Of a DNA stretch of 54,969 nt, positions 43,625 through 54,819 are shown piece by piece (position 1 is the stretch's first letter; every line of letters starts with the position of its first letter). Source of the DNA: Bacteroidales bacterium (GTDB taxonomy: Bacteria > Bacteroidota > Bacteroidia > Bacteroidales > VadinHA17); contig JAOZPG010000017.1 in the NCBI GenBank assembly GCA_029932855.1, forward strand, positions 1 to 54,969, in the 5' to 3' direction. The translations under genes and the position numbers were made by a program. The notes under the pieces are model-generated. The model was not told the origin of the DNA. It saw only the letters and a program-made list of their open reading frames with translations, and searched no databases.

Positions 43625-43939
43625 ATGCGTCAGGCCAAAATACTGCTATACGGAATAGAAGCGGGGGTATTGATAGAAGAGAAAAAGAACCGGGATTATT
43701 TGTTCAGATATAATTCAGATTATTCCGGTGAGCCAATTTCATTAACAATGCCTGTGGAGAAAAGGGAGTTTCGTTTCAACAATTTCCCTTCATTTTTCGA
43801 TGGTTTACTTCCTGAGGGAGTACAGCTTGACGGCTTGCTCCGAAACAGGAAGATTGACAGGGACGATTATTTCAAACAACTGATAGCTACCGGATCAGAC
43901 CTGGTGGGAGCAGTAACTGTGGAGGCTATAAATGAATAA
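43625..43939 (+). CDS. HipS-like protein (HipA N-terminal subdomain as a separate gene)
   Basis: A 104-residue protein equivalent to the N-subdomain 1 of HipA: YSGEPISLTMPVEKREF, FPSFFDGLLPEGVQL and the final DLVGAVTVE are its hallmarks. In the E. coli O127 HipBST system the corresponding small protein HipS, not HipB, is the antitoxin that blocks the kinase. Its end overlaps the kinase start by eight bases, in a different frame, so this is a real split gene and not a frameshifted hipA. Confidence 0.82.
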   Translation: MRQAKILLYGIEAGVLIEEKKNRDYLFRYNSDYSGEPISLTMPVEKREFRFNNFPSFFDGLLPEGVQLDGLLRNRKIDRDDYFKQLIATGSDLVGAVTVEAINE

Positions 43940-44858
43940 GTGCCCAATCACATATGAGGAATGTGAAGCAAAGTATTCCGAAAAAGGATTAAGCTTATTA
44001 TCTCCTTCTTTGAAATCATTAAACGACCTGGAATATTCAGCAGCTGAACAGAGGGAGCAGGCCTTCCTCAGGTCATATAAAATGTCGATCCAGGGAATGC
44101 AGCCGAAATTAAGTGCTGTATTAAGTCCATCTGCCTCTTCCTTTATGATTGTAGATATAAAAGGCCGCTACATTTTAAAACCACAACATCAGCATTATCC
44201 TCAGTTACCGGAGAATGAGAGCCTGACAATGAAAATGGCCGGAGTTATAAATATTGATATTCCTGTTTCAGGGATGCTGTGGTCGAAAGATGGCAGTCTG
44301 ACATATTTCATAAAACGCTTTGACAGGTATAGTAAAACCAAAAAACTTCCACTTGAAGATTTTGCCCAGCTTGCCGGGATGACGAGGGATACAAAATACG
44401 GCTATTCATTTGAAAAATTAATCAGCCTGGTCGAGACCTACTGCACTTTCCCGGTTGTTGAAAAAGCAAAACTTTACCGAAGGACCATTTTCAACTATTT
44501 AAGTGGGAATGAAGATATGCACCTGAAGAACTACTCACTTATTAGCCGAAATGGGAAAGTAGAGTTATCACCGGCATATGATCTGCTCAACAGTTCAATT
44601 GTTTTATCAGGCGATATTGAAGAAACAGCATTAACAATAAGAGGAAAGAAAAAAAATCTTACACACTCAGTTCTGGTCGATTATCTGGCATACGAAAGAA
44701 TGAAACTCAATGAAAAGACAGTATCGAATATCCTGAAAGGCATAAGCTCATCAGCAGGATACTGGACAGATCTGATCAACAAATCCTTCTTATCGGCAAA
44801 ACTAAAAGATTCGTATAAAAGCATGCTTGATGAAAGACTGCAAAAACTAGGCTTATAG
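43932..44858 (+). CDS. HipT-like serine/threonine kinase toxin
   Basis: A 308-residue HipA-like kinase lacking the N-subdomain 1. The Gly-rich-loop motif is MSIQGMQPKLS (51-61, with S52 at the autophosphorylation position). The ATP lysine is in YILKPQ (K83). The catalytic segment is GNEDMHLKNYS (D195, K199, N200), and D217 in PAYDLLNSS binds metal. All kinase residues look intact. HipA phosphorylates GltX and HipT phosphorylates TrpS, so a tRNA synthetase target with translation arrest is expected but not proven here. The operon ends 77 bp before tRNA-Pro. Confidence 0.85.
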   Translation: MNKCPITYEECEAKYSEKGLSLLSPSLKSLNDLEYSAAEQREQAFLRSYKMSIQGMQPKLSAVLSPSASSFMIVDIKGRYILKPQHQHYPQLPENESLTMKMAGVINIDIPVSGMLWSKDGSLTYFIKRFDRYSKTKKLPLEDFAQLAGMTRDTKYGYSFEKLISLVETYCTFPVVEKAKLYRRTIFNYLSGNEDMHLKNYSLISRNGKVELSPAYDLLNSSIVLSGDIEETALTIRGKKKNLTHSVLVDYLAYERMKLNEKTVSNILKGISSSAGYWTDLINKSFLSAKLKDSYKSMLDERLQKLGL

Positions 44859-44935: not shown

Positions 44936-45010
44936 CGGGGTGTAGCGCAGTCCGGTTAGCGCACCTGCTTTGGGAGCAGGGGGTCGCAGGTTCGAATCCT
45001 GCCACCCCGA
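44936..45010 (+). tRNA. tRNA-Pro (anticodon TGG)
   Basis: Acceptor arms CGGGGTG / CACCCCG, discriminator A. The anticodon stem CCTGC / GCAGG encloses TTTGGGA, giving anticodon TGG. The T-arm reads GCAGGTTCGAATCCTGC. The region to its right looks like acquired DNA, so the 3' end may be an attachment site. Confidence 0.97.
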
Positions 45011-45361
45011 CAATATGAAAATATAACCCCTGTAATTCAATGAGTTACAGGGGTTATTTGCTTAGTAAGCCAAATATTAAGCCAAAATATTAAGCCAAAT
45101 ATGCCTTTCAAAACCGAATAAGTGTTTATTATCTATCATAAAGATAGATTAATGGGAAAGATGGATATCAAAGAAAAGACCGAACTGGGTCAGAAATTCG
45201 ACCTAAGTATAAAGGACTTGTTTCATTTGGAAGTCATATGTGGGAGCTTTGCATACAATTAATCCATAGAGAGTTAAGGGTTCGATGCTAAAAAGCATAT
45301 AAAACAGCAGGCTATATTTTGGCTTCCTGACATTAATAAGTAGAACCAAAACCTTCTACTT
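45011..45361. other. Non-coding stretch after tRNA-Pro with direct repeats
   Basis: Contains the terminator at 45023-45057 and three near-identical direct repeats of TAAGCCAAATAT (45066, 45078 and 45091, the middle one with an extra A). A small hairpin ATCTATC/GATAGAT lies at 45131-45149. A 36-codon ATG frame at 45152-45262 encodes a hydrophilic peptide I do not recognise and is not convincing. No integrase fragment was found. Confidence 0.6.
45023..45057 (+). terminator. Terminator-like hairpin after tRNA-Pro
   Basis: A perfect 13-bp stem, ATAACCCCTGTAA / TTACAGGGGTTAT, with a nine-base loop; the following T run is weak. Confidence 0.75.
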
Positions 45362-45873: not shown

Positions 45874-47442
45874 ATGTCAGAAGACCACAAACGCCAACTC
45901 AACCAGCAACTCTGGAATATAGCCAACACCCTTCGGGGTAAAATGGATGCCGATGAATTCCGTGATTACATCTTAGGATTTATTTTCTATAAGTACCTGT
46001 CTGAAAAAATGAAAATATATGCCAATGAAATCCTGAAGGAAGACAAAATGGTATATATGGACATCAAGGAAGACACAGATAAAGGCAGAGAATATCTGGA
46101 AGCCATTAGGGAAGAATCACTGGAAAAACTAGGTTATTTTCTCAAACCATCGGAATTGTTTGGTCAAATTGCAAAACGTGGGAATGGTAATGGTAAGTCT
46201 GAAAGCAATTTTATTATTGAAGACCTTGATGTTATCCTGAACAATATCCAACTCAGTACGATGGGGACAGAAAGCGAGGAAGATTTTGACCACCTGTTTG
46301 AGGATTTGGATTTAAACAGTACTAAATTAGGAAAGACTGTTGACCAGAGAAATGAAGTTATTGCAAAAGTACTTTCGCATCTCAATAAAATTGATTTCCA
46401 ACTGGAACATCAGGAATTAGATGTGTTGGGCGATGCCTACGAATATCTCATCGGTCAATTTGCAAGTGGTGCGGGGAAAAAAGCAGGAGAATTTTATACA
46501 CCACAGCAAGCAAGTAAAATCCTTGCACGACTGGTAACACTGGGTAAAACCAGAATAAAATCTGCTTACGACCCCACGGCAGGGTCTGGGTCATTAATTC
46601 TTAGAATCGGGAAAGAATGCGAGGTACTGAACTTTTACGGACAGGAACTTAACCGTACTACCTATAACTTATGCAGGATGAATATGATTCTGCATGACGT
46701 GCATTATTCCCGTTTTGACATCAAACTGGAAGATACGCTTGAATACCCGCAACACAACAAGCTGGAAGCAGAAGCTGTGGTTGCCAATCCACCATTCAGT
46801 GCAAAATGGAGTGCCAATCAGTTGTTTATGACCGATGACCGTTTCAGTGAATACGGGAAACTTGCACCCAGTTCTAAAGCCGATTATGCCTTTATCCAGC
46901 ATATGATATACCATCTGGCAGAAAATGGTGTTATGGCTGTAATTATGCCCCATGGAGTGCTTTTCAGGGGTGCTGCCGAGGGACATATCAGAAAGTACCT
47001 GATTGAAGAAAAAAACTATCTGGATGCCGTTATAGGACTTCCTGCAAACATTTTCTTTGGAACAAGCATACCAACATGCATACTGGTGTTTAAAAAGTGT
47101 CGTGAACAACCCGATGATATCCTGTTCATTGATGCCAGTCAACATTTTGAAAAGGTGAAAACCCAGAATCATCTAAGAGATGAGGATGTTGACCGTATTG
47201 TTGATACTTACAGCAAGCGGGTCAGTATTGATAAGTACAGTTATGTGGCGGGTCTTGAAGAGGTAAGGGAGAACGATTATAACCTGAACATCCCTCGTTA
47301 TGTGGATACCTTTGAAGAGGAAGAGCCAGTTGATATTGTTGAGGTGGCAGGTGAACTGGTAGCATTGGAAGCCAATATGAAAAAGACTGATGAAGCTATT
47401 GCTGGTTTTTGTAAGGAATTAAATATCCCAACACCTTTTTAG
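45874..47442 (+). CDS. hsdM: Type I restriction-modification system, methyltransferase subunit
   Basis: A 522-residue N6-adenine methyltransferase subunit. The N-terminal helical HsdM domain (QQLWNIANTLRGKMDADEFR) is followed by the SAM-binding motif AYDPTAGSGSL (231-241) and the catalytic NPPF (305-308) in VVANPPFSAKW. It pairs with HsdS to modify the host recognition sequence and with HsdR to cut unmodified DNA. hsdS starts three bases after its stop. Confidence 0.96.
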   Translation: MSEDHKRQLNQQLWNIANTLRGKMDADEFRDYILGFIFYKYLSEKMKIYANEILKEDKMVYMDIKEDTDKGREYLEAIREESLEKLGYFLKPSELFGQIAKRGNGNGKSESNFIIEDLDVILNNIQLSTMGTESEEDFDHLFEDLDLNSTKLGKTVDQRNEVIAKVLSHLNKIDFQLEHQELDVLGDAYEYLIGQFASGAGKKAGEFYTPQQASKILARLVTLGKTRIKSAYDPTAGSGSLILRIGKECEVLNFYGQELNRTTYNLCRMNMILHDVHYSRFDIKLEDTLEYPQHNKLEAEAVVANPPFSAKWSANQLFMTDDRFSEYGKLAPSSKADYAFIQHMIYHLAENGVMAVIMPHGVLFRGAAEGHIRKYLIEEKNYLDAVIGLPANIFFGTSIPTCILVFKKCREQPDDILFIDASQHFEKVKTQNHLRDEDVDRIVDTYSKRVSIDKYSYVAGLEEVRENDYNLNIPRYVDTFEEEEPVDIVEVAGELVALEANMKKTDEAIAGFCKELNIPTPF

Positions 47443-47445
47443 TTT

Positions 47446-48717
47446 ATGGAAAAGCAAAATAATATACCTGAATTGCGGTTTCCATCTTTTGGTGATGTAT
47501 GGAATAAGAATAAATTTCATGAATTATTTTCGTTTATTACCACAAATTCTTTTTCAAGAGACCAATTAAATTACGAATTTGGGAATGCAAAGAATATCCA
47601 TTATGGAGATATTCATACAAAATTTGCTACGCTTTTTGATATTGGGAAAGAATTAGTTCCATACATCAATAGCAATATCTCACTCAATAAAACTAAGGAT
47701 GAGAATTATTGTAAAGAAGGTGATGTGATTTTTGCTGATGCTTCAGAAGACTTAAATGATGTCGGGAAAAGCATTGAAGTAGTAAATCTTGATAAACAAA
47801 GAGTGTTAGCAGGATTACACACAATACATTCAAGACCTAATAAGGATTTATTTTCTGTCGGATTCTTGGGCTTCTTAATGACCTCAAATTTTATACGGAC
47901 TCAAATACAGAAAGAATCACAAGGGACTAAAGTATTAAGTATATCAAATGGAAGGTTATCAAAAATAAGTGTGATTTATCCTTCTTTTCCCGAACAAAAG
48001 AAAATCGCATCCTTTTTCACCGCCATTGACCAGAAGATTTCCCAACTAAAACAAAAGAAGACCCTGCTGGAACAATACAAAAAAGGGGTGATGCAAAAAA
48101 TCTTCTCTCAGCAAATCAGGTTTAAGGATGATAATGGGCAGGAGTTTCCAGAATGGGAGAAGAAGAGGTTGGGGGAAATTGCTGTGTTTTATAAGGGTAA
48201 AGGAATTTCAAAAAATGATATCGCAGATAATGGAAATATTGAATGCATCAGATATGGTGAGTTATATACGGTATACCAAGAAACAATTGATGTTGTGAAG
48301 TCAAGAACAAGTGTTAACCCTAAAGATTTGGTTTTAAGTGAAGCCGATGATGTTATTATTCCTGCCTCAGGAGAGACACAGATTGATATTGCCACTGCAT
48401 CTTGTGTATTAAAATCAGGCATTGCCCTTGGGGGAGACCTGAATATAATTAGAAGCAACTTTAATGGCGTTTTTCTTTCCTATCTTTTAAACAGTAAAAT
48501 GAAAAGAGAGATTGCAAAATTAGCACAAGGTATTTCCGTAGTACATTTATATTCGAGTCAACTATCATTATTAAAACTCGAAATTCCAACAGTTTTTGAA
48601 CAAACCAAAATAGCCAATTTCCTATCCGCCATCGATACTAAAATCAACCACACTCAAACCAAAATAGAAAAAGCCGAACTGTGGAAGAAAGGACTTCTTC
48701 AAAAAATATTCGTTTAA
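47446..48717 (+). CDS. hsdS: Type I restriction-modification system, specificity subunit
   Basis: A 423-residue specificity subunit with the expected two target-recognition domains and two helical spacers. The spacers are similar to each other: EQKKIASFFTAIDQKISQLK (centre) and EQTKIANFLSAIDTKINHTQ (end), followed by KKGVMQKIF and KKGLLQKIF. TRD1 covers about 1-180 and TRD2 about 225-385. The recognition sequence is bipartite but cannot be read from the protein alone. Confidence 0.94.
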   Translation: MEKQNNIPELRFPSFGDVWNKNKFHELFSFITTNSFSRDQLNYEFGNAKNIHYGDIHTKFATLFDIGKELVPYINSNISLNKTKDENYCKEGDVIFADASEDLNDVGKSIEVVNLDKQRVLAGLHTIHSRPNKDLFSVGFLGFLMTSNFIRTQIQKESQGTKVLSISNGRLSKISVIYPSFPEQKKIASFFTAIDQKISQLKQKKTLLEQYKKGVMQKIFSQQIRFKDDNGQEFPEWEKKRLGEIAVFYKGKGISKNDIADNGNIECIRYGELYTVYQETIDVVKSRTSVNPKDLVLSEADDVIIPASGETQIDIATASCVLKSGIALGGDLNIIRSNFNGVFLSYLLNSKMKREIAKLAQGISVVHLYSSQLSLLKLEIPTVFEQTKIANFLSAIDTKINHTQTKIEKAELWKKGLLQKIFV

Positions 48718-48720
48718 AAT

Positions 48721-49317
48721 ATGAACGCAAATGATAACATTGATAAATGGTTGGACTTCCTTGACCCTGAAAATTTCAAAGGAAATCTAATGATTTCATC
48801 TCTGTTTATAGCATCGTTTGAATCATTTAAAGATTACGTGGTCGAAGAAGTCAGGTTCTTCTTCAATACTGGATTTGAAAATGGAGAATATACGTTTGAC
48901 CCCACTTATAATACTAAGATTATTGCGAAGGATAGAAGCCCAATAAAAGCAAGTCTTCTCTGGCTTGAAGAAATGGGTGCAATAAGTTCGCAGGATATTG
49001 GTGAGTATGATAATTTTAGACAATTTCGAAATAAACTGTCGCACGAATTGATGGATTTGTTATTCGAGGGACTTCCAGAGAAACTTCCAAACATGTTTGT
49101 TAAACTCATAGACCTTCGTATCAAAATTGAGGAATGGTGGATTTTAAATATTGAAATCCCAGCTAATCCAGATTTTGACTCCGAAGAAGACATAAATGAA
49201 GAAGGGATAACGACTTCAACTCAGATATTTTATAGGCTTTTTAAGGACATGCTTTCAGGAGATGAGAAAAAGGCATCCTACTATCAAAATGAGTTTAAAC
49301 AATATTTTAAAAAATAA
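48721..49317 (+). CDS. HEPN-motif protein inside the type I operon
   Basis: A 198-residue, mostly helical protein between hsdS (three bases upstream) and hsdR (its stop TAA shares a base with the hsdR ATG, as TAATG). It has the sequence FRQFRNKLSHELMD, in which R103-x4-H108 fits the Rx4-6H catalytic signature of HEPN ribonucleases. The surrounding helices (LLWLEEMGAI before the motif) also match small HEPN proteins. I infer a possible RNase or effector tied to the restriction system, comparable in idea to anticodon nucleases embedded in type I loci. No exact family assigned. Confidence 0.7.
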   Translation: MNANDNIDKWLDFLDPENFKGNLMISSLFIASFESFKDYVVEEVRFFFNTGFENGEYTFDPTYNTKIIAKDRSPIKASLLWLEEMGAISSQDIGEYDNFRQFRNKLSHELMDLLFEGLPEKLPNMFVKLIDLRIKIEEWWILNIEIPANPDFDSEEDINEEGITTSTQIFYRLFKDMLSGDEKKASYYQNEFKQYFKK

Positions 49318-52169
49318 TGTCACGCCAACCCGAACTCATACTAGAAGAAAAACTGGTTCAGCAATTAACTGAATTGGGTTATGGTCTCGTGCATATAAGT
49401 AATGAAGCTGATTTAATCATCAACCTCAAGACCCAACTTGAGAAACACAATGGCATTAGGTTCAGCGATAAGGAATTTGAGAAGGTACTGAACATCCTGA
49501 GCAAGGGTTCAGTATTTGAAAAAGCCAAAACGCTGAGGGTAAAACAACATATCATCAAGGATAATGGTGACAACCTATATTTTGAATTCATAGATACAGA
49601 GAACTGGTGTCAGAACCAGTATCAGGTAACACATCAGGTAAGCATAGAGGGTAAGTATAAAAACCGTTATGACGTTACCTTACTCATTAACGGATTGCCA
49701 CTGGTACAGATTGAATTAAAACGCAGAGGACTTGAACTTAAGGAAGCCTTTAACCAGATTAACCGATACCAACGACATTCTTTCGGAGCGAGTTCAGCAC
49801 TTTTTCAGTATGTTCAGGTATTCGTTATTAGCAATGGTGTAAACACCAAGTATTACGCAAATAATCGCTTCCAGTCTTTTAAACAAACGTTTTACTGGAC
49901 AGATATTGAAAATAAGCGTCTTACTAATATTCTTAACGGTTTCACAACGGACTTCCTCGAGCCATGCCACATCAGCAAGATGATTAGCAAGTATGTGGTG
50001 CTAAATGAGACCTATAAAATATTAATGGTGTTAAGACCCTATCAATATTATGCTGTTGAAGCACTTGTGGACAGGGTTGAAAATAGTAGAAAGAATGGAT
50101 ATATCTGGCATACTACTGGAAGCGGAAAGACGCTGACCAGTTTTAAAGCAAGTCAGATATTAACAGGTCTTCCCAAGATAAAAAAGGTGGTCTTTGTGGT
50201 TGACCGCAAAGACTTGGATTATCAAACCAACAAAGAATTTAACAGTTTCAGCAAGGGTAGTGTTGATGGAACTGATAACACCCGACAACTGGTTAAGCAG
50301 TTCCGTGATGACACCAAACTCATCGTAACCACCATTCAGAAACTTAATACTGCCATTAGCAAGAAACATTTTCTGGAAAGAATGGCAAAGGTGGAGAATG
50401 AACGTATAGTTTTTATTTTTGATGAGTGCCACCGCAGCCAGTTCGGTGAAACTCACCAGCGCATCACCAGTTTTTTCAAGAACATCCAAATGTTTGGTTT
50501 CACTGGCACTCCAATCTTTGCTGATAATGCCGTTAAAAATGCTCTGGGTAAAAGAACCACCAAGGAATTATTTGGTGAGTGCCTACACAAATATGTTATT
50601 ACCGATGCCATAAGGGATGAGAATGTCCTGAAGTTCAGTGTGGAATATGTGGGTAAATACAAAAACAAAAACAGTTCTACTGAAATTGATATACAGGTTG
50701 AGGATATCGATGTTCAGGAATTATTGGAAAGTCCTGAACGTCTGGATAAAATCAGTGACTACATCATTGCCTATCACGATAAGAAGACCCATAGGAAGCA
50801 ATTTACAGGCATGTTTGCTGTTGGTAGTGTAGCAACCCTGATTAAATATTACGAGACCTTCCAACGTAAGAAAAACGAGGGTAAACACGACCTGAGAATT
50901 GCTACTATATTCAGCTACATCAGCAATGAAGATGATGCCGATGCTTCAGGGTTTATTCCTGAAGAACTGCCATTAGCAGCCGAACCAGAATTTCAATACC
51001 GTAATTCCCATACTCGTGAAAAACTTGATGGATTTATCGGTGATTATAACCAGATGTTTGGTTCAGCATTTAATACCAAAGACTACCAAAGTTTTTACAA
51101 TTATTATAATGATATCAGCAAGAAGGTCAAGGAACGTAAAATAGACATCTTGCTGGTTGTAAACATGTTCCTGACGGGATTTGATAGTCCAACACTAAAT
51201 ACCCTGTATGTAGATAAGAACCTTAAATATCACGGACTGATTCAAGCATTTTCCCGAACAAACAGAATAATAAACGAATTAAAATCACAGGGCAACATCG
51301 TGACCTTCCGAAATCTCAAGGATGCCACCGATGAAGCCATCACGCTGTTTAGCAACAAGGATGCCATTGATGTAATCATTATGAAACCTATTGAGGATTA
51401 CGTTAAGGCATTCAATGCAGCCTATAAACGACTTCTGGAAATCGTCCCCAGTATCGATAGTGTAAATGAACTTGAAACCGAAGAAGACGAACTGACATTT
51501 ATTAAGGCATTCCGTGATTTAATGCGAGTGAAGAACATCCTGACCTCGTTTTCCGATTTTCACTGGGATGATTTGGAAATGACTGAGCAAACCTTTGAGG
51601 ACTATAAGAGTAAATATCTTGATTTGCACGATAAGGTCAGGAGTGACCATGCGAAAGAAAAGGTTAGCATATTGGATGACGTGGACTTTGAACTGGAACT
51701 TATTCACAGGGATGAAATAAACGTTGCATATATAATCCAGTTACTGGTTAAACTCAAAGCCAACCAGAAGAAAGAAGCTGAACAGGTTGAAAAAGAAATC
51801 CAGAATTTGCTGAACACCGAAACACAATTACGGAGTAAGAAAGAACTTATTGAACGGTTCATCCGTGAGAATCTTCCAATCATCAAGTCCACAGAAGATA
51901 TTCCCGATGAGTTTGAAAAATACTGGAGTGCTGAACAGGAAAAAGCGTTTCATGAACTCGTTAAGACAGAAAACCTCAGCAAGGAGCGGACACAGGCACT
52001 TATTGAAAATTACTTGTACTCCGAAAAAGAACCCATGCGTGATGATATACTTGAATTGCTTCAGGGCGACAAACCAACATTGCTTCAGCGCAAATCAATT
52101 GGTGACAGGATACTGAAAAAGATAGTTGGTTTCGTTGATACATTTATTAACGGAATTAGTGGGTCTTGA
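49317..52169 (+). CDS. hsdR: Type I restriction-modification system, restriction/translocase subunit
   Basis: A 950-residue motor-nuclease. The N-terminal PD-(D/E)xK nuclease shows D119 in YDVTLLING and E133-L-K135 in QIELKRRG. The SF2 helicase follows, with Walker A GSGKT at about 268-272 in WHTTGSGKT, and DECHRS (D369) as motif II. Later motifs include FGFTGTP, VVNMFLTGFDSPTLNTLYVDK and QAFSRTNRI. The C-terminal helical domain (about 760-950) contacts the methyltransferase. All catalytic residues are present, so the system looks functional. Confidence 0.96.
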   Translation: MSRQPELILEEKLVQQLTELGYGLVHISNEADLIINLKTQLEKHNGIRFSDKEFEKVLNILSKGSVFEKAKTLRVKQHIIKDNGDNLYFEFIDTENWCQNQYQVTHQVSIEGKYKNRYDVTLLINGLPLVQIELKRRGLELKEAFNQINRYQRHSFGASSALFQYVQVFVISNGVNTKYYANNRFQSFKQTFYWTDIENKRLTNILNGFTTDFLEPCHISKMISKYVVLNETYKILMVLRPYQYYAVEALVDRVENSRKNGYIWHTTGSGKTLTSFKASQILTGLPKIKKVVFVVDRKDLDYQTNKEFNSFSKGSVDGTDNTRQLVKQFRDDTKLIVTTIQKLNTAISKKHFLERMAKVENERIVFIFDECHRSQFGETHQRITSFFKNIQMFGFTGTPIFADNAVKNALGKRTTKELFGECLHKYVITDAIRDENVLKFSVEYVGKYKNKNSSTEIDIQVEDIDVQELLESPERLDKISDYIIAYHDKKTHRKQFTGMFAVGSVATLIKYYETFQRKKNEGKHDLRIATIFSYISNEDDADASGFIPEELPLAAEPEFQYRNSHTREKLDGFIGDYNQMFGSAFNTKDYQSFYNYYNDISKKVKERKIDILLVVNMFLTGFDSPTLNTLYVDKNLKYHGLIQAFSRTNRIINELKSQGNIVTFRNLKDATDEAITLFSNKDAIDVIIMKPIEDYVKAFNAAYKRLLEIVPSIDSVNELETEEDELTFIKAFRDLMRVKNILTSFSDFHWDDLEMTEQTFEDYKSKYLDLHDKVRSDHAKEKVSILDDVDFELELIHRDEINVAYIIQLLVKLKANQKKEAEQVEKEIQNLLNTETQLRSKKELIERFIRENLPIIKSTEDIPDEFEKYWSAEQEKAFHELVKTENLSKERTQALIENYLYSEKEPMRDDILELLQGDKPTLLQRKSIGDRILKKIVGFVDTFINGISGS

Positions 52170-52605
52170 AATATCCTGTATATTTTGTAACATTTCCGTC
52201 TTAAATCCGTATAATCAGTTAACTACGAGCATATTACATGCAAATAGTGACAATAAAACGACATCTTCCATAATTATTGATGAATATATTAAAGGCAGGT
52301 AGCAATATTTGCTTTTGGTAGTTTTAAGAAGCAAAACTTTTGTAAATTAATACCATATAAGATTATTAAGTGTATCGGTAATCTTTTCCTGTTCTGGTGT
52401 TATTTTATTATTCATACTCTTGTTTTATGAGATACTATATTTATAGTAAGCAGGAACAATTCTATGAAAAAGCTATGCACAACTCTTAAAATTAGTATAT
52501 TTAACAAAAAAAATCGACAACCCTGTAATACACTGACAATTAATTCGTAAAAACGTGAGTTGTGCATGGTTTTATTAAGAGTTGTCACTAACATGCTTTT
52601 TGATT
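52170..52605. other. Non-coding region between hsdR and the palm-domain gene
   Basis: About 436 bp with no supported gene. The right third carries the inverted repeat described separately. A 22-codon minus-strand frame at 52347-52415 is too short to support. AT-rich stretches could hold the promoter of the downstream gene, but no convincing TAnnTTTG box was placed. Confidence 0.5.
52469..52585 (+). repeat. Long inverted repeat upstream of the palm-domain gene
   Basis: ATGCACAACTC (52475-52485) and GAGTTGTGCAT (52557-52567) are exact complements. Pairing extends outward to 52469 and 52573, giving 17 pairs with two G-U. The loop is 71 bases. A second half-copy, TTAAGAGTTGT (52575-52585), is also exactly complementary to 52479-52489, so the left arm can pair with either of two right arms. 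It ends about 20 bases before the ATG at 52606. It may be an RNA structure or repressor sites. Confidence 0.75.
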
Positions 52606-54567
52606 ATGAATAGATATTATGATAATTATTTTGAATATTTGCCTCTTCTTTTAAAGAAAAGGTTAATTGTTTTATTTAATAATCTTCCTGAAGGGTATGA
52701 ATCATTTGGTCGTGATTTCCGTTCATGGAATAATTGTGTTAAAATTTGTAGTGTTGTATTGTTTAAACAATTTGAATTAGGTTCTATTGGAGATTCATCT
52801 TTATTTTATTGTGGGTTATCAGCAGGGTTTTGGAAGGATAAACGTATAATCGGGAATCATTATTCACGATACATAAACTTTCTTCTTGACCAGCAGGTTT
52901 TGCAGCGTAAATGGGGTAGGTTTTATTTTGATGATGGGTTTGTTGATGAATATGGTTACAGGATAAATCCTGAGTTGAATAATGGGGAATATGTTATTGT
53001 TGAATACAAAGACCGAAAAGACAAACCATCAGAGGTAGCTATTAGTGAATATGACGGACATAAACCATTTAAGCCTGAGCCATTCAATTTGGATAAAATT
53101 AACATTGGAAATAAATCGTATGCAAAAAAGTGGGTAAGGGAAAATGCTGAACGATTGGTGAAAGATGCTATTACCGATAATTATTACGATTTACTACCCG
53201 ATAAACTTTCTCTTGCCTTCACAAAGCTAAAAGAGGATGGGACACATCAGACCCGCTATTATTCTGTTAAGAAGGCAAAGGAGATTGCAAAAGTAGAAGA
53301 CCTATCATTGTTTTATTACAGAAACAAAAATGTAATTTCCACAAAAGATTATTTTTTGAAGCAGGTCATTCCTGAATTCACAAAGCACTATTTGTGGCGA
53401 GTATCTTCTTTTAGTAGCGTGAAATTTAATTTGTCCAGACATCAAAAAACCAGAAGGGTATATGGTCAAACTGTTTCGCTACCATCCACATTATTACCAT
53501 TTGTCCGCATCCACAACCAGTTTATAATGCAGGTTGATTTAAAATCCAGTCAATTCACAATCTTCGCCAATATCTTAAACCATTACATTATAAGTGGTGA
53601 TTCCGAGGGAGAGGCATTGCTTGAGAAATTTAGAAACACTAAAAGCAGGGATTTCATTACAAAACTGATAAAGACATTCAAAAAACACAAAGAGAATCTA
53701 TCAAGCAACAGTGTGGATTATAAAAATCCTGTTGAGGATATATATTATGATGAGGGGAATGATGTGTTTCAGTTTTTGCAGGATGTCTTCTTTCATGATT
53801 TTTATAATATACTGAAATCAACACTGAACCTTTCTTCCAGACAACATGCAAAACTTTGGGCATTCACAATTTTGTTTGGAAAGGAGACCACCAACAATAT
53901 CATCAAGAAACAAATGATGGAACTTTACCCAACAATTGTTAATATTATTGATGATTTTAAAAGAACGTATAAATCTAACCAGTTTTCAATCGGTCTTCAG
54001 GTTTTGGAAGCGGAACTGTTTATTGACAATATCTGGAAATCAGCAAAGACCAACCACATCACAAGTTTTACACGACATGACTCCTTAGTGTTTGCAATTT
54101 CAAAAAGAAGTGAAGTAGAAACCATTATTGCAGAAACGCAAGAAAAATTCCAGTTCATTGGCAGTTTCAATTACGAGATATTTAATGAAACGGTAATTAA
54201 GAAGTATGGCTATTATATTCCTGAAGAAGAATTTTGTGTTGATGAATTGGATTTATATACACACTATCCACATCTTGAAGAACACCCATTTAGTGAGTAT
54301 TACGAAGATGATATTGAACTGATGAAACAATTAGTTGAAATCGGAATACATGATGATTATTATGGATTAATTGATTTGGGTATGATGGAAAACATTACTG
54401 AATTACCTTTCTTAGAAGACTCTTCTAAGGAATCAAGATTTCTTGCAGATGAAGTGTGGAATATGCGGGAAGGATATTCGTTTTTTCAGGAAACTACGAA
54501 TAGTATATTGAAAACAATGATTACCATCCTCTCATCAATAAATTTTGATGCAATACCAGAAGACTAA
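52606..54567 (+). CDS. Putative family-A-polymerase-like palm protein
   Basis: A 653-residue protein from ATG 52606 (an in-frame TTG at 52582 is less likely). I do not recognise it by name, but the central part shows polymerase A-type palm motifs in order: motif A MQVDLKSSQFTIFA (D311), motif B RQHAKLWAFTILFGK (R412, K416, FG 424-425, equivalent to R-x3-K-x7-YG), and motif C RHDSLVF (H491, D492). A conserved-looking LQVLEAELF lies between B and C. The N-terminal ~120 residues may contain a winged helix (GNHYSRYINFLLDQQ, then QRKWGRFYF). There is no 3'-5' or 5' exonuclease motif and no reverse-transcriptase YxDD. It could be a replication, defence or single-subunit polymerase protein. The acidic C-terminal ~110 residues are unassigned. 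Confidence 0.65.
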   Translation: MNRYYDNYFEYLPLLLKKRLIVLFNNLPEGYESFGRDFRSWNNCVKICSVVLFKQFELGSIGDSSLFYCGLSAGFWKDKRIIGNHYSRYINFLLDQQVLQRKWGRFYFDDGFVDEYGYRINPELNNGEYVIVEYKDRKDKPSEVAISEYDGHKPFKPEPFNLDKINIGNKSYAKKWVRENAERLVKDAITDNYYDLLPDKLSLAFTKLKEDGTHQTRYYSVKKAKEIAKVEDLSLFYYRNKNVISTKDYFLKQVIPEFTKHYLWRVSSFSSVKFNLSRHQKTRRVYGQTVSLPSTLLPFVRIHNQFIMQVDLKSSQFTIFANILNHYIISGDSEGEALLEKFRNTKSRDFITKLIKTFKKHKENLSSNSVDYKNPVEDIYYDEGNDVFQFLQDVFFHDFYNILKSTLNLSSRQHAKLWAFTILFGKETTNNIIKKQMMELYPTIVNIIDDFKRTYKSNQFSIGLQVLEAELFIDNIWKSAKTNHITSFTRHDSLVFAISKRSEVETIIAETQEKFQFIGSFNYEIFNETVIKKYGYYIPEEEFCVDELDLYTHYPHLEEHPFSEYYEDDIELMKQLVEIGIHDDYYGLIDLGMMENITELPFLEDSSKESRFLADEVWNMREGYSFFQETTNSILKTMITILSSINFDAIPED

Positions 54568-54573
54568 ATGTTA

Positions 54574-54819
54574 TTATAACTCATCTATGATGGATAGTAA
54601 CTCAGAAGCACTTACCCGATAAAACTCACAGAGCTGGAAAAGAGTTAGTATCTTAAAATTTTTAATATTTTCAATATTTAAAATTGTGTTACGATTCAAA
54701 CCAGCTTCAATACCAACTTCTGCTTGTGTAAGATTTTCTGCATATCTTAATTCTTTAAAATAACTTGATATGGCAAATAATTGCTTATCATATTTCTTCT
54801 GGACATTCTTGGACTTCAT
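54574..54819 (-). CDS. XRE-family helix-turn-helix regulator
   Basis: An 81-residue HTH protein (LTQAEVGIEAGLNRNTILNIEN, HTH at about 31-50) with a helical continuation (LTLFQLCEFYRVSASELL). It is convergent with the palm gene, with six bases between the stops. It may regulate this island, but no matching operator was found. The final 150 bp of the window hold no gene. Confidence 0.8.
   Translation of the reverse strand: MKSKNVQKKYDKQLFAISSYFKELRYAENLTQAEVGIEAGLNRNTILNIENIKNFKILTLFQLCEFYRVSASELLSIIDEL

Follow-up and report, generated by a model that had tools for sequence, protein, structure and literature searches.

A family-A-like palm polymerase of Bacteroidota mobile elements and phages, with a predicted leader RNA in part of the family

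Genes and features of the locus

The window, the whole stretch of 54,969 nt that was analysed, comes from a contig of a Bacteroidales bacterium. On its forward strand, an open reading frame of 653 residues at positions 52606–54567, here called POL, carries the palm motifs of family A polymerases. Its ATG has two in-frame alternatives as start, the TTG codons at 52582 and 52600. As the alignments and hhalign show, R284 (53455–53457) aligns with the TGR motif of PolA. Motif A reads VDLKSSQF (53533–53556) and contains D311 and Q316, the latter at the position of the Glu in DYSQIELR of PolA. The motif B region of Klenow is its O helix, and motif B of POL, R412-x3-K416 followed by FG (53839–53880), is O-helix-like. 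The Gln of Q465-x-x-E468 (53998–54009) aligns with that of the PolA IQG motif, and motif C reads RHDS and contains D492 (54073–54084). The ORF of 653 residues and the motifs VDLKSSQ, R-x3-K with FG, and RHDS were present as a sequence-only reading had claimed.

The type I restriction-modification operon that the same reading had placed upstream of POL was also found. It occupies positions 45874–52169 of the forward strand, its translations read as HsdM, HsdS, a 198-aa ORF and HsdR, and 436 nt separate its end from the POL ATG; it is probably a cargo neighbour. A Cro/C1-type HTH protein (Pfam HTH_3) is encoded on the reverse strand at 54574–54819, convergent with POL. No recombinase or integrase was seen on the window contig, which stops 402 nt past POL. 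In a search for element ends by synteny to relatives, the matches ended at a FloA-like gene and an att site was not found. Two adjacent ORFs at 43625–44858 resemble a split HipA toxin-kinase gene and lie beside tRNA-Pro (44936–45011).

A repeat scan located an inverted repeat on the forward strand upstream of POL. Its 17-nt arms (52469–52485 and 52557–52573) are 88% complementary and 71 nt apart; the left arm contains ACAACTC (X) and the right arm contains GAGTTGT (X'). A second X' copy (TTAAGAGTTGT, 52575–52585) stands 22 nt past the first, with the direct GAGTTGT at 52579–52585, and three of the four contig copies of this 7-mer fall within a 107-bp stretch. Read from the letters, both arm mismatches would be G·U pairs if the forward strand is transcribed. 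Folding of positions 52440–52610 as RNA gave −41.5 kcal/mol and z −4.4 for the sense strand, and z −2.1 for the opposite strand. A stem of 17 bp with a 71-base loop had been described at this place, and the repeat and its fold bear this out, but the distance of "within about 20 bases" from the gene has to be corrected, as the right arm stops 32 nt before the ATG. The forward-strand octamer TATATTTA (52496–52503) resembles the −7 box before several POL leaders and, together with a weak −33 box, may be promoter-like.

Conservation and distribution of the POL family

Nine residues, R284, D311, S315, Q316, Y400, K416, Q465, E468 and D492, are invariant across 44 aligned members, the window included, and R412 is kept at 90% or more in a 31-row alignment (A4). 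Loss of D311 or D492 in homologues had been named beforehand as evidence against a polymerase, and both residues are present in 44 of 44 rows. The window POL shares 15–23% overall identity with the other 30 rows of A4. It forms a long branch on the family tree (L151, L176, L088 and L161 left out), where its nearest neighbour is L173. It thereby stands far apart within a large, nameless family of small enzymes that resemble DNA polymerases and are carried by mobile elements and phages of Bacteroidota. The usual length of POL is 400–550 aa; the POL ORFs at L143:9523–11583 and L166:8878–10821, with 686 and 647 aa, come near the 653 aa of the window.

The window POL had zero matches in Pfam and PADLOC at E 10, and matches to NCBIfam (best E 0.15) and PHROGs (best E 0.34) were at chance level. 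No RT family was found for it in Pfam, NCBIfam or PADLOC, in agreement with the earlier statement that RT motifs are lacking, and no exonuclease family was found in POL. The 44 members matched 22 Pfam families at E 0.1, and DNA_pol_A (PF00476) was not among them. One of the 44 matched a PHROG annotated as replication initiation protein (E 3e-4). An ordinary PolA is encoded elsewhere in the genome of the window organism.

The family was collected by chained searches starting from the window POL, and the counts for relatives, class and phylum include its own genome. POL was found in 7 of 60 genomes of relatives, 32 of 396 genomes of the class and 17 of 395 genomes of the phylum, and in 16 genomes of a single-genus survey. 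It was further found at 14 named genome loci, at 45 viral-contig loci, and in six phage records of 595–735 kb, two of which are alike. By tblastn, one plasmid (NZ_CP060788.1) and one 635-kb phage record carry POL. Viral scans with two subgroup alignments returned none from one alignment and one already known contig from the other. Across Bacteroidota the POL family is common, and huge phages have it too, but Pfam offers no consistent match.

Palm fold and type of polymerase

The AlphaFold model of POL, computed from the 44-row alignment, had a mean pLDDT of 68.5 and a pTM of 0.60, with pLDDT of about 74–93 in residues 270–520 and lower values near 370–390. When the model was searched against the PDB with Foldseek, the top 21 rows were all family A DNA polymerases, with a best E of 1.8e-3; no match reached E 0.001 or below. 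VIA-align gave Z 13.0 and 4.8 Å over 259 residues for T7 DNA polymerase, and Z 12.9 and 3.2 Å over 218 residues for apPol. The best two rows in BFVD were phage proteins of 403 and 409 aa, one of them titled "Putative DNA polymerase I". The hhalign comparison of POL with PolA was colinear across the motifs over 205 columns, yet weak (P 0.003, probability 10%). The fold comparison (Z 12–13), the weak colinear profile alignment and the conserved catalytic residues agree with the PolA-like palm that had been proposed from the letters.

The Glu of DYSQIELR in motif A of Klenow and PolA is the steric gate against ribonucleotides, and the invariant Gln316 of POL occupies its column. Because of the fold, the profile alignment and Gln316 at this column, the catalytic core is predicted to be of family A type with an altered gate. 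POL shares with PolA and T7 DNA polymerase the palm fold and the order of R, the motif A Asp, the R-K-FG of motif B, Q and HD. It differs from them in the missing DNA_pol_A match and exonuclease family, in the Gln at the gate, in HDS instead of HDE, and in an N-terminal region of its own. With the single-subunit RNA polymerases (T7, N4 RNAP2) POL has the HDS of motif C in common, and there are marginal profile matches: N4 RNAP2 reaches E 0.86, and two of the 44 members hit Pfam RNA_pol, the better one at E 0.026. RNA polymerases, and not family A, are the sole weak sequence matches to any polymerase. However, the profile alignment and fold matches of POL to RNA polymerases are weaker than those to PolA: the best hhalign match to T7-type enzymes covers motif C alone (P 0.024), and mitochondrial RNAP reached a Foldseek E of 0.69. 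The sequence-only reading had left the product type open; family A DNA polymerases now fit better in fold and profile, whereas the weak sequence matches are all to RNA polymerases, and DNA seems a likelier product than RNA.

Gene neighbourhood and mobile setting

Among 59 cellular loci (L151, L176, L233, L235 and L088 left out), which include near-identical pairs (L090/L092) and related loci and are therefore not independent, 33 had a recombinase within 5 kb of POL (26 tyrosine integrases and 7 serine recombinases), compared with 0 of 20 random 20-kb stretches from POL-carrying genomes; neighbours of POL had served to train the integrase profile, and the control stretches were picked by round coordinates. 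The other 26 loci showed none within this distance. Of 47 cellular loci, counted without L151 because it repeats L087, 14 show the order tyrosine integrase, unnamed ORF, HTH and POL, with a small ORF interposed in some, and Pfam confirmed the integrase and the HTH of this module in examples. The ORF between integrase and HTH (L085:3718–4791, L089:7860–8924 and L087:7698–9083) is without a Pfam match and may be an element-specific protein.

Phage terminase, amidase/lysis or serine recombinase genes lie near some POL copies. At L222:10237–12280 and L226:7168–9205, a gene for a large serine recombinase comes after POL, as does a conserved gene of 86 aa (76% and 80% identity). On three viral contigs (L046:5601–6947, L044:5920–7230 and L063:5634–6977) an unnamed gene of 436–448 aa with no Pfam match comes right before POL, and in two of the three an ORF of 63–66 aa lies between the two genes. 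In L043, a gene for an AAA/kinase-like protein precedes POL.

Ten POL neighbours preselected for a defence-like appearance were scanned with PADLOC, and nine matched defence models. The matches near POL were HKD+Snf2, HEC-06, a methyltransferase, MzaB, MzaC, GajB-like and MkoA-like helicases, TIR, and a type I methyltransferase. BLAST with HsdM as seed placed a type I HsdM within 8 kb of POL at 6 of 59 loci, one of them in the window, and translations show that HsdM also adjoins the POL of genome G919. Recombinases recur, phage genes lie near some copies and the inspected defence neighbours vary; POL is therefore read as a replication enzyme carried by mobile elements, and the defence genes as their cargo. 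A plasmid or ICE replication protein had been one of the earlier suggestions, and the recombinase count and the plasmid favour it at the level of the family, not of the window contig. The family represents a family-A-like polymerase of compact size whose nucleotide gate is altered and which is linked to integrases and, in the scanned examples, to defence-type cargo.

A predicted leader RNA in other branches of the family

An early scan for simple inverted repeats upstream of homologues gave few above shuffles, and its verdict of "not conserved" was revised because later folding and a descriptor scan revealed leaders. RNA folding gave strong hairpins before several POL genes. Over all POL genes the enrichment was mild, with fold z below −2 in 21% of 80 leaders and 11% of 261 controls, and below −3 in 12% and 5%, respectively. 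A descriptor scan covered 4.49 Mb and gave 13 distinct places with scores of at least 40.5, of which 9 precede POL. The pattern consists of an outer stem of 4–6 pairs, UU, an inner stem of 7–9 pairs, a bulge X of 6–8 nt, the outer stem again, X' once or twice, and the start codon. The last X' ends 1–13 nt before the start codon, which is TTG in L220 (by comparison with a relative) and, it appears, in L227 and L230 as well. The leader of L226 is spanned by a longer ORF, and the start was chosen to match relatives.

A covariance model from three loci detected three more among 76 loci at E 1.8e-10 to 8.4e-5, including the previously unseen L230. The next model, from six loci, was run over 1.38 Mb and matched 7 times, in each case upstream of POL and in its sense orientation; six are model members and the seventh is L220. 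In the seven leaders, 9 of 13 pairs vary on both sides and 0 on one side only. Covariation was 0.80, where shuffles gave 0.22 and slid pairings no more than 0.19, on an alignment that was fitted to the model and favours this result. Applied to 248 genomes of one genus, the model gave seven matches below E 1e-6, of which five were model members and a sixth had already come up in the protein search; the remaining one, G919, was new. In G919, a POL frame (E 1.5e-29) that the protein query had missed opens 87 nt after the RNA start on the same strand. Six of the 16 POL genomes of this genus have a model match and 10 have none. Three of eight weak matches (E 0.006–0.1) were inspected, and all three were without POL. 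The leaders of L086, L154, L041 and L232, assigned by eye or by the descriptor scan, are missed by the model, and where POL follows an HTH gene there is often no room for a leader.

A complement of X (6–8 nt) was present in the own leader in 12 of 12 cases and in other leaders in 13 of 128, where X of 10 leaders had been taken from folds or from a scan already requiring a 5-nt complement, and L230 and L251 had been found by the model without it. There are 10 different X among the 12 leaders. A second X' site of at least 5 nt occurs in 9 of 12, with a spacing of about 15–22 nt in seven, about 35 nt in L154 and 39 nt in L220; the first X' is partial or absent in L041, L079 and L222. Between L227 and L230 one base of X differs, and the matching base is changed in both X' copies. 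Rfam had no match for ten leader loci, and among the papers listed in literature searches none described the POL family or an RNA-linked family A enzyme. On these searches POL is a new family of known fold with a new predicted leader RNA. More elaborate hairpins with complementary repeats and different stems stand before POL at L064:7046–7142, L164:7010–7115, L053:7184–7304 and L228:10937–11078 and are possible variants.

The hairpin of the window compared with the leader

The pairing of a structured element with the polymerase, suggested from the window, is upheld in other branches by the covariation and the blind match in G919, but could not be demonstrated for the window hairpin itself. The window leader scored 4.9 bits against the leader covariance model, and the two stems of the relatives are absent. 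It has X and then X' twice, 22 nt apart, in the same order as in the relatives. Triples of this 7-nt type occurred in 4 of 95 POL leaders (window included) and 6 of 1053 control leaders, and in 10 of 1826 segments of its own contig, in a scan that excluded two-letter 7-mers and with them hid several X sites that are true. Elsewhere in its own genome the 427-bp leader region has short matches but is nowhere repeated in full. At L173, the nearest tree neighbour, POL lies behind an HTH gene without leader space. The letters of X, X' and X' are suggestive of a diverged version of the relatives' leader, and the hairpin may be either such a diverged leader or an unrelated operator.

It is a serious possibility, somewhat short of even, that in the window the hairpin is due to chance or unrelated and that POL there is a plain element polymerase. 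The window POL has no close homologue, the R2 leader model does not match, L173 lacks a leader, and the triples in control leaders and on the contig agree with this. The difference in z between the sense and the opposite strand, the G·U nature of both mismatches, and the X/X'/X' order shared with relatives argue against it.

Proposed role and alternative explanations

Alongside the fold, motifs, recombinase neighbours, stem covariation and X/X' complementarity observed in the family, we propose, with about an even chance of being right, that POL is a mobile-element replication polymerase whose synthesis is controlled by the leader RNA in a subset of the family. POL would be a primer-extending family A palm polymerase that copies the DNA of its carrier element. 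In the subset, the POL transcript would start with the leader RNA, made of the outer stem, the UU bulge, the inner stem closed by a loop like U-A/U-G-C, the 3' bulge X, and X' once or twice. Pairing of X with X' beside the start codon, with or without bound POL, would set the amount of POL and therefore the frequency of element replication. POL perhaps binds the leader hairpin, as gp43 of phage T4, a family B polymerase unlike POL, does with its own. According to the excerpted text of PMC3014915, T4 gp43 binds its own hairpin operator in autoregulation, and the T4/RB69 hairpin lies tens of bases before the start codon of the polymerase gene, as for POL. That excerpt (PMC3014915) describes no X/X' repeats for gp43, and autoregulation of POL would be an analogy.

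The repeats could also be DNA sites, either operators bound by POL or by an HTH repressor, or an origin of replication beside a replication gene. This is rather unlikely, even though the window has two direct copies at a distance of 22 bp and an inverted one, an HTH gene adjoining POL, and a left arm that overlaps the −33 region of the promoter-like box. An RNA fits better with the compensatory changes in the stems and with the X bulge left unpaired, in the sense orientation of POL in 7 of 7 model matches, and 10 different X in 12 loci are unlike the sites of one conserved regulator. That the leader RNA serves POL as template or primer, as in retrons and DRT systems, is distinctly improbable. 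Like the relatives of POL, those systems have a polymerase gene with an upstream structured RNA; however, POL is not an RT, and no constant effector was seen beside it. The X' copies flank a short A-rich unit, and a product ending at one X' could therefore re-anneal at the other and give repeats; DRT2- or telomerase-like template jumping would be a parallel for such repeated copying. The second X' site of at least 5 nt in 9 of 12 leaders, the complementarity of bulge X to X', the fixed orientation and position before POL, the palm polymerase adjoining a structured RNA and the Gln in place of the gate Glu are consistent with a template. Against it, X' abuts the start codon, as is typical of control elements, the first X' is partial or absent in three leaders, many family members have no leader, and neither a constant effector gene nor an RT domain was seen. 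Very improbable, too, is the fuller version, in which a family A palm enzyme and a dedicated ncRNA, with X' and X guiding repeated copying of a short unit, would form an independent retron-, DRT- or telomerase-like device on a PolA fold. As a precise handle, the X/X' complementarity of the covarying leader RNA could serve to tell translational control, a DNA operator and a template apart.

A dedicated anti-phage function of POL is very unlikely. The defence-type neighbours (type I restriction-modification, Mza-, Mokosh- and Gabija-like genes, TIR) would fit such a function, but the inspected cargo varies between loci while recombinases recur, and POL is also found in huge phages and beside phage genes. 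The retron-like defence system considered in the sequence-only reading is not borne out either, as POL genes are carried by phages, by a plasmid and by integrative elements whose cargo changes.
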